Source: Sulfurihydrogenibium sp. YO3AOP1 (GTDB lineage: Bacteria > Aquificota > Aquificia > Aquificales > Hydrogenothermaceae). Taken from it: 64,000 bases of DNA. Made by a program: the position numbers and the translations under genes. The notes beneath the pieces were generated by a model. That model saw only the letters and a program-made list of their open reading frames with translations. It did not search any database and was not told the origin of the DNA. Shown here piece by piece: positions 41,611-43,526 of the stretch; position 1 is the first letter of the stretch; each line of letters opens with the position of its first letter. Location: contig NC_010730.1 in assembly GCF_000020325.1 (NCBI RefSeq), positions 124,001 to 188,000 of the forward strand, written 5' to 3'.

Positions 41611-42519
41611 ATGGCTATTCCGGGCTATCAAGATTTAATGCTTCCTTTACTAAAGCTTGTTTCTGACGGCAAAGAGTATTCATTAAGAGAAATTATTGAA
41701 AGGTTAGCAGAAGAATTTAATCTTTCTGAAGAAGATAGAAATGAATTTTTACCATCAGGACAACAGAGAGTATTTGATAATAGAGTAAACTGGGCAAAAA
41801 CATATTTATTAAAAGCTGGACTGTTAGAAAGTCCAAAAAGAGGTTATATCAAAATATCTAAGGCGGGAAAGCAGTTTTTAGTTGATAATCCCAATTTAAA
41901 CAAATTAACAAAAGAAGATTTGATGCAATTTGAAAGTTTTAGAGAATTTATAAGTAGAGGAAACAAAAAGAATATGGTCTTGCATATTGATTCAGAGACT
42001 CCAACGGAAATAATAGAGCAAAAAATCCAAGAGGTTAATGAAGCATTAGCGGATGAACTACTTAGAAAAATCAAAGGCTCATCACCAAAATTTTTCGAAA
42101 AATTGGTTATAGATTTACTTTTAAAAATGGGATATGGTGGTTCTGAGAAAGAAATGGCTGAAGTTGTCGGAAAATCTGGAGATGAAGGAATAGATGGAAC
42201 AATCAAAGAAGATAAACTGGGATTAGATGTTATTTATATTCAAGCTAAAAGATGGGAAGGTCCTGTCGGTAGACCAGAAATTCAAAAGTTTGTAGGAGCT
42301 TTAGCCGGCAAAAAAGCTAAAAAGGGTGTGTTTTTTACAACTTCCACATTTACAGATGAAGCTAAAGATTATGTTTCACACCTTGAACAAAAGGTCGTTT
42401 TAATTGACGGTAATAAGTCAGCGGATTTGATGATTAAATACAATGTAGGTATTTCTGTTGAGAAAGTAATTGAAATAAAAAGAATAGATTCAGATTATTT
42501 TGAGGAAGATATCATCTGA
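41611..42519 (+). CDS. mrr: Mrr-family type IV restriction endonuclease
   Basis: The 302-residue protein has an N-terminal winged-helix Mrr_N domain (about 1-95) with VNWAKTYLLKAGLL. The C-terminal Mrr catalytic domain (about 158-275) has D195 in DEGIDG and Q211/K213 in YIQAKRW, the PD-(D/E)XK variant with QxK. Mrr cuts methylated DNA and is a defence nuclease. It sits 5 bases after yajC in a housekeeping run, with the Rpn nuclease next. Specificity is not visible. Confidence 0.93.
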   Translation: MAIPGYQDLMLPLLKLVSDGKEYSLREIIERLAEEFNLSEEDRNEFLPSGQQRVFDNRVNWAKTYLLKAGLLESPKRGYIKISKAGKQFLVDNPNLNKLTKEDLMQFESFREFISRGNKKNMVLHIDSETPTEIIEQKIQEVNEALADELLRKIKGSSPKFFEKLVIDLLLKMGYGGSEKEMAEVVGKSGDEGIDGTIKEDKLGLDVIYIQAKRWEGPVGRPEIQKFVGALAGKKAKKGVFFTTSTFTDEAKDYVSHLEQKVVLIDGNKSADLMIKYNVGISVEKVIEIKRIDSDYFEEDII

Positions 42520-42629
42520 TTTTTTGTTTATAAGTTAAAAATAGATGATGACATAACATATAAATGGAAAATGAAAGGAAATGAAAGGATTGTAACAAGG
42601 CTTGCAAGGAATGATAGAGGTTTAATTTA

Positions 42630-43526
42630 ATGAGTGAAATTCATCCTCACGACCAATTTTTTAAACAGATATTTTCTGAGCCAAAGAGGGTTAAAAGCCT
42701 GCTTGATATATTTTATCCAGAGCTATCTCAAAAGATAGACTTAGAAAGTATAAGATTATTAAACAGTGAAAAATACTCACAGAAGATTGGAAAATCACTT
42801 CTTGACCTTTTGTATGAATGCAAAATAGAAAACGAAAAAAGCTTTATAAGAATCATTTTTGAACACAAATCATACATAGATAAAAACCTACCAAGTCAGC
42901 TTTTGTATTACAATGGCATATTATGGGAAGAAACAGGAGAGTATGAAGAGTATCCACCAATAATCAACATTGTCTTGTACCATGGTAAAAGAAAATGGAA
43001 TATACCAACTATACTACCAAAAACTAACTCAGAAATTATAGAAAGATTTACAAACAAACTTAACTATCACTTAATAGACCTTTCAAAGGTAGCTGATGAA
43101 GAGATGATAAACAAGCTCTACATAGACTTTTGCACAGTGTCAGCACTTCTTACAATGAAGCATATTTTCAAAGATTTAAGAAAGTATAAACATATTTTAA
43201 AGAAGGTTTTTGAACACTATCAAGATGGTTGTGTTTTTATCATTTTAGATTATATTTCAGTTGTAAACAACCCACAAGAAGTTGAAAATGTATTAAAGGA
43301 AATCTTGGGAGGTGAAAAAGATATGATGACATTAACAGAAAAATGGAAAATGGAAGGAATAATTGGAGCTAAGAAAGAAGACATTCTTAAACTTATCAAT
43401 CTTAAATTTGGCAGAGTATCAGAGGAAGTTGAAAAATTAATTTCAAACATTAACGACTTAGAAGAATTAGACAAACTCTTTACAAAGGCTATTTTGGCTA
43501 ATAGCTTAGAAGAGTTGTTGAAGTGA
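42630..43526 (+). CDS. Rpn-family recombination-promoting nuclease
   Basis: The 298-residue protein begins HPHDQFFKQIFSEPKRVKSLL, the hallmark of the Rpn/transposase_31 family. A PD-(D/E)XK core follows, with the acid in SLLDLLYECKIE and ExK-like IIFEHKS. Rpn proteins are DNA endonucleases; in E. coli some defend against phage and are held in check by a small protein made from an internal start in the same gene. A strong internal ribosome site occurs here too, at 43307. It follows mrr by 110 bases with no ribosome site of note. Confidence 0.88.
   Translation: MSEIHPHDQFFKQIFSEPKRVKSLLDIFYPELSQKIDLESIRLLNSEKYSQKIGKSLLDLLYECKIENEKSFIRIIFEHKSYIDKNLPSQLLYYNGILWEETGEYEEYPPIINIVLYHGKRKWNIPTILPKTNSEIIERFTNKLNYHLIDLSKVADEEMINKLYIDFCTVSALLTMKHIFKDLRKYKHILKKVFEHYQDGCVFIILDYISVVNNPQEVENVLKEILGGEKDMMTLTEKWKMEGIIGAKKEDILKLINLKFGRVSEEVEKLISNINDLEELDKLFTKAILANSLEELLK
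43323..43526 (+). CDS. Possible intragenic RpnS-like small protein, in frame within rpn
   Basis: GGGAGGTGA at 43307-43315 stands 7 bases before an in-frame ATG at 43323 (a second ATG follows directly). This would give a 67-residue product starting MMTLTEKWKMEG and ending SLEELLK, identical to the Rpn C-terminus. No such strong site precedes the full-length start. Published work on E. coli Rpn describes an intragenic C-terminal product that inhibits the nuclease, so this is a likely antitoxin; there is no direct evidence of translation. Confidence 0.5.
   Translation: MMTLTEKWKMEGIIGAKKEDILKLINLKFGRVSEEVEKLISNINDLEELDKLFTKAILANSLEELLK

Follow-up and report, generated by a model that had tools for sequence, protein, structure and literature searches.

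An internal Shine-Dalgarno site in a Sulfurihydrogenibium rpn gene is conserved and homologous to the RpnA internal start, suggesting a gene-within-gene RpnS-type antitoxin

Intragenic antitoxins of Rpn nucleases have been demonstrated experimentally by Zhong et al. (2023, PMC10327210) in Escherichia coli and, with E. coli as the expression host, for one Clostridioides difficile gene. In E. coli, RpnAS and RpnAL form a 2:2 complex, RpnL lacking RpnS shows higher toxicity and activity, and mutation of RpnA M244 together with its ribosome site abolishes RpnAS (PMC10327210). The RpnAS crystal structure (7th0) is a three-helix bundle, a variable number of four-residue repeats in the first helix is a published RpnS hallmark, and tandem duplication has been proposed as the origin of rpn arrays (PMC10327210). 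Here we describe an rpn gene in a 64-kb stretch of DNA (the window; bases 124001-188000 of the 1,838,442-bp single-contig genome of a hot-spring Sulfurihydrogenibium; all window features given below lie on the forward strand). This gene very probably represents an RpnL/RpnS-type toxin-antitoxin, with one gene nested in the other, and would be a further member of a known system. The internal site, its homology to the RpnA start, and selection on the site and on solo RpnS are shown by sequence comparison; RpnS synthesis, dimerisation, neutralisation of the nuclease and phage defence are predicted by analogy with E. coli.

The full-length gene (42630-43526) encodes a 298-residue Rpn/YhgA-like protein (RpnL) of the PD-(D/E)XK nuclease type. 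Its product matches PF04754 with E=8.9e-31 and 107.5 bits, above the gathering score of 21. Although inside this Pfam family, it falls below the NCBIfam TIGR01784 cut-off (29.6 against 52.1 bits), a curated NCBI subfamily model that the Pfam definition does not demand. RpnA itself was rejected as an assignment: the equivalog model NF007361 gave 28.6 bits where 583 are needed, making the product a homologue only. Residues D59 and E78-H79-K80, corresponding to the PD-(D/E)XK active site, are invariant or nearly so in 20-21 homologues and are the predicted catalytic residues. A structure model of the full-length protein was poor (pLDDT 44, from two sequences) and was set aside.

The internal start consists of the Shine-Dalgarno site GGGAGGTGA (43307-43315), a gap of seven bases and an ATG at 43323 in the rpn frame, giving a 67-residue product; the sequence confirms this part of an earlier reading made from sequence alone. 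A second ATG adjoins it at 43326, so that the start is a tandem ATGATG (43323-43328; M232 and M233) and the product may have 66 residues instead. The 8-mer GGAGGTGA occurs once on the two strands of the 64 kb, at this site. Paired with the 16S tail GGCTGGATCACCTCCTTT, which was found in the genome of the window, the internal site forms a duplex of -16.1 kcal/mol. This ranks first among the 274 internal in-frame ATGs of the window, the background against which its chance level was judged, and the best outside rpn reaches -10.6 kcal/mol. A promoter scan for an internal transcription start returned promoter-like sites in about the number found in shuffled sequence, none of which stood out.

The sequence-only reading had also stated that the full-length start at 42630 has no comparable ribosome site, which is wrong: TAGAGGT, with its GAGGT at 42617-42621, lies about 9 nt before the ATG (9 nt from GAGG) and pairs at -7.0 kcal/mol, equal to the alaS start. 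The site is thus weaker, not absent. In other family members the full-length starts range from +0.8 to -8.9 and the internal starts from -11.3 to -17.8, the full-length start always being the weaker; this contrast is conservative because a script picked the best candidate for each full-length start.

The sequence-only reading had claimed the same geometry as in E. coli Rpn, and M233 (ATG 43326) aligns with RpnA M244, the published RpnAS internal start. A profile built without RpnA also aligns through this point. The homologous start codon may therefore be the second ATG (66 residues), although either could serve, 43323 having the better spacing and 43326 the better homology. The domain that would be made from here (rpnS, 43323-43526; 67 or 66 residues) is predicted to be an all-helical C-terminal antitoxin domain (AF2 model, mean pLDDT 73.6; alignment). 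In the alignment, its four-residue repeats (GLQQ, GKLE and others) number none in this copy, two in the S. yellowstonense gene at the same locus and more in the paralogues. A fold search with the helical RpnS model, which is of moderate confidence, gave no match to 7th0 and nothing significant, and the family profile without RpnA did not find 7th0. The RpnS domains have diverged past the first helix (49 residues in RpnAS, 67 here). A match of another profile to the RpnAS crystal structure was discarded as circular because that profile contains RpnA.

Loss of the site or ATG in close homologues, which the sequence-only reading had named as a refutation of its own proposal, was not seen: the ribosome site is present in 17 of 17 intact genes of the genus, and at least one ATG of the pair survives in each of the 23 intact genes listed from the genus and the order. 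In intact homologues from Sulfurihydrogenibium and another genus of the order Aquificales (39-92% identical), an ATG comes 9 or 12 nt after GGA-GGT, which in one case reads GGA-GGG. The first ATG is lost and the second kept in L078, L079, L090, L091 and L101 (Ala, Val or Ile) and in L047 (ATA), while L002 has lost the second and kept the first. Among divergent representatives (<75% identity), 10 of 11 use GGA-GGT, where the Gly codon usage of these genes predicts 0.155 (binomial P 7e-8, a value that treats clusters as independent and is weakened by shared ancestry, other synonymous sites being well mixed). To control for ancestry, codon fixation was compared over the 20 columns in which a conserved amino acid has at least four codons; it is seen at two of them only, the GGA and the GGT. 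Synonymous resampling of the internal site gene by gene is weakly unusual (0.05-0.12) because the Gly-Gly motif itself favours a ribosome site. Distant homologues encode the ribosome site with other residues (QEEKK-M in L016, KKEPN-M in L082, KHKESL-M in E. coli RpnA). Together with the codon fixation, this argues for selection on the nucleotides, beyond that on the protein.

Thirteen related loci, found in part through their RpnS and some of them from draft genomes, have an open RpnS frame and a broken or absent nuclease part, and the SD-like site is kept in 11 of the 13. Four (L053, L032, L047 and L028) have a fragment of the nuclease start followed directly by an intact ribosome site and RpnS. 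L031, L043 and L049 retain RpnS but lack the nuclease start. An open RpnS accompanies an interrupted nuclease frame in L026, L029, L039 and L040; given the drafts, single interruptions may be sequencing errors. L011 and L041 are solo rpnS copies downstream of rpn. The RpnS start region has been lost by decay in L010 and L042.

Two of these loci come from different species, L032 from genome G006 and L047 from G004, and share the same deletion junction, with the nuclease body gone and a purE-like gene adjoining. Since the deletion their RpnS sequences have accumulated a dN of 0.065 and a dS of 0.83 over 63 codons (dN/dS 0.08). They differ by one four-residue repeat, and the C-terminal end of L047 is changed after residue 67. 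At the level of codon substitutions, this pair of solo RpnS genes is under purifying selection with no nuclease present in cis, although gene conversion from paralogues may have contributed. The window's own genome also carries a solo rpnS in decay (L010, G000:C1:1401578-1401811), its frame shifted immediately past the start. A similar copy that is intact, L043, follows a recR-like gene in S. yellowstonense (G005).

The 110-nt gap between mrr and rpn holds a decayed copy of the 5' part of rpnS that forms the rpn leader (42533-42620; local alignment score 74, the highest of 300 shuffles being 31). This relic comprises the ribosome site, the ATGATG, the first helix and the repeats of rpnS, is better preserved in S. 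yellowstonense, and contains the full-length ribosome site of rpn. Judged from the alignment, it agrees with the proposal that rpn arrays arose by tandem duplication.

The gene mrr (41611-42519) encodes a type IV methyl-directed restriction enzyme (Mrr_N 6.2e-35, Mrr_cat 6.6e-36; PADLOC mREase_IV E=1.9e-91), whereas PADLOC did not recognise rpn. The gene order in the window is alaS-yajC-mrr-rpn-aspS. The suggestion of a small defence island holds insofar as mrr lies just upstream of rpn within the alaS-yajC-aspS run, but the island comprises only two genes here. It is larger in S. yellowstonense SS-5, the nearest named relative of the window and the only match in the genome-contig scan, where the order is alaS-yajC-mrr-rpn-solo rpnS-type III Mod-Res (solo rpnS and the restriction-modification pair at L103:3005-8467). 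G004 has a close relative of that solo RpnS at another place in its genome (L031), and the sequence downstream of the two is the same. Among 25 genomes, mrr is found in the window genome and S. yellowstonense only. In a third species (G002), which lacks mrr there, yajC is followed immediately by rpn; in four other members of the genus, the stretch retrieved downstream of yajC shows no rpn. Sulfurihydrogenibium genomes hold up to about seven PF04754 matches each, plus solo RpnS. A tblastn search of plasmids returned 2711 records with remote Rpn, while viral contigs gave no detectable relative.

A divergent Rpn clade of the same phylum, from the same genomes and relatives, scores below both the PF04754 and the TIGR01784 cut-offs and has a related C-terminal domain with repeats (L017:832-1704, L018:832-1701, L033:11-898, L045:1364-2341, L046:477-1484, L048:959-2017, L054:1035-1988, L055, L057 and L058). 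In nine of its ten genes the strongest internal ribosome site precedes the in-frame ATG of an MP(I/L) motif, and in the tenth this site ranks second. Starting there, the predicted product has 87-146 residues; the repeats and the RpnS-like domain come after the motif, and the ribosome site is encoded by residues different from those in the window rpn. As judged from these sequences, the clade could possibly carry intragenic antitoxins outside PF04754. Resampling gives modest values (0.07-0.17 per gene, with one of 0.002) and several of the genes are close relatives, so we treat this extension as a lead, not proof.

Homology to the RpnA start, conservation of the site and the solo RpnS genes all support the internal start as that of an RpnS-type antitoxin, whose synthesis and neutralising role are predicted from the E. 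coli precedent. We propose that the weaker upstream ribosome site would give the 298-residue DNA nuclease RpnL, while the strong internal site would give extra copies of the C-terminal helical domain, RpnS (66-67 residues). The first helix of RpnS would pair with the same domain of RpnL and hold the nuclease inactive. With the stronger internal site, RpnS would be in excess, so that freeing the nuclease would require a disturbance of the complex, phage infection being the probable cause.

It could be argued that GGAGGT simply reflects a conserved Gly-Gly-Glu/Asp linker in the protein and that the internal Met starts nothing. The GG motif is indeed conserved in the family, and free synonymous choice over it already averages about -11 kcal/mol. 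Such a linker would not account for the fixation of both Gly codons, where other conserved columns with at least four codons average about 0.6, nor for ribosome sites built from other residues in distant homologues, nor for retention of the GG-ATG segment at loci without the nuclease part; we consider it unlikely. Intragenic SD-like sites can also pause ribosomes or stimulate frameshifting, and the A-rich codons after this site would suit such a signal on the full-length message. That explanation is very improbable given that the other two frames meet a stop immediately or within 25 codons, that no slippery heptamer is constant across relatives, and that the ATG is kept at start-site spacing.

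An internal product might alternatively be made as a structural subunit needed for activity, like Cas11, instead of an inhibitor. Internal starts yield such subunits elsewhere (Cas11d, cited in PMC10327210), and the 2:2 complex of RpnAS and RpnAL would accommodate one; against this, E. coli RpnL is more toxic and more active without RpnS. Purifying selection on solo RpnS without the nuclease, seen in one species pair, likewise suits an inhibitor better than a subunit, and the subunit explanation appears improbable.

The RpnL/RpnS system itself is already known, and the apparent extension to the divergent clade is the newest part of the finding. The Sulfurihydrogenibium paralogues add independent evolutionary evidence for codon-level selection on the internal ribosome site. 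They also offer solo antitoxins whose toxin has been deleted naturally, and matched pairs that differ in repeat number, making specificity and cross-neutralisation directly testable. More tentatively, and with some doubt on our part, the intragenic antitoxin might be an old and general trait of the wider Rpn superfamily, the solo antitoxin being retained against Rpn nucleases elsewhere in the cell or on incoming mobile DNA.

Like E. coli RpnA/RpnAS (rpnA, b3411) and the C. difficile Rpn, the window gene encodes a PF04754 nuclease from a family with variable four-residue repeats. As in RpnA, the first helix is immediately preceded by an internal ribosome site and ATG, which align in position (MTIAERLRQEG in RpnA, MTLTEKWKMEG here), and solo rpnS copies stand beside rpn as they do in E. 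coli. The two differ in overall sequence (about 22% identity), in the length of the antitoxin (66-67 residues against 49 in RpnAS) and in its diverged C-terminal part. The gene described here also has two tandem ATGs, an internal ribosome site that pairs far more strongly (-16.1, compared with -8.3) and a thermophilic Aquificota host, and its solo RpnS relatives arise in place as well, via deletion of the nuclease part. The solo rpnS of S. yellowstonense, 88% identical to the window RpnS, resembles the E. coli pairs rpnE-ypaA and rpnC-rpnCS in lying downstream of rpn; unlike them, it uses an upstream start of its own that lacks GGAGGT, and a type III Mod-Res pair comes after it. By analogy, type I-D Cas10d/Cas11d offers a further parallel, in which a C-terminal domain is made apart from an internal start and binds its parent protein, although the proteins are unrelated and Cas11d is a needed subunit whereas RpnS is a predicted inhibitor.
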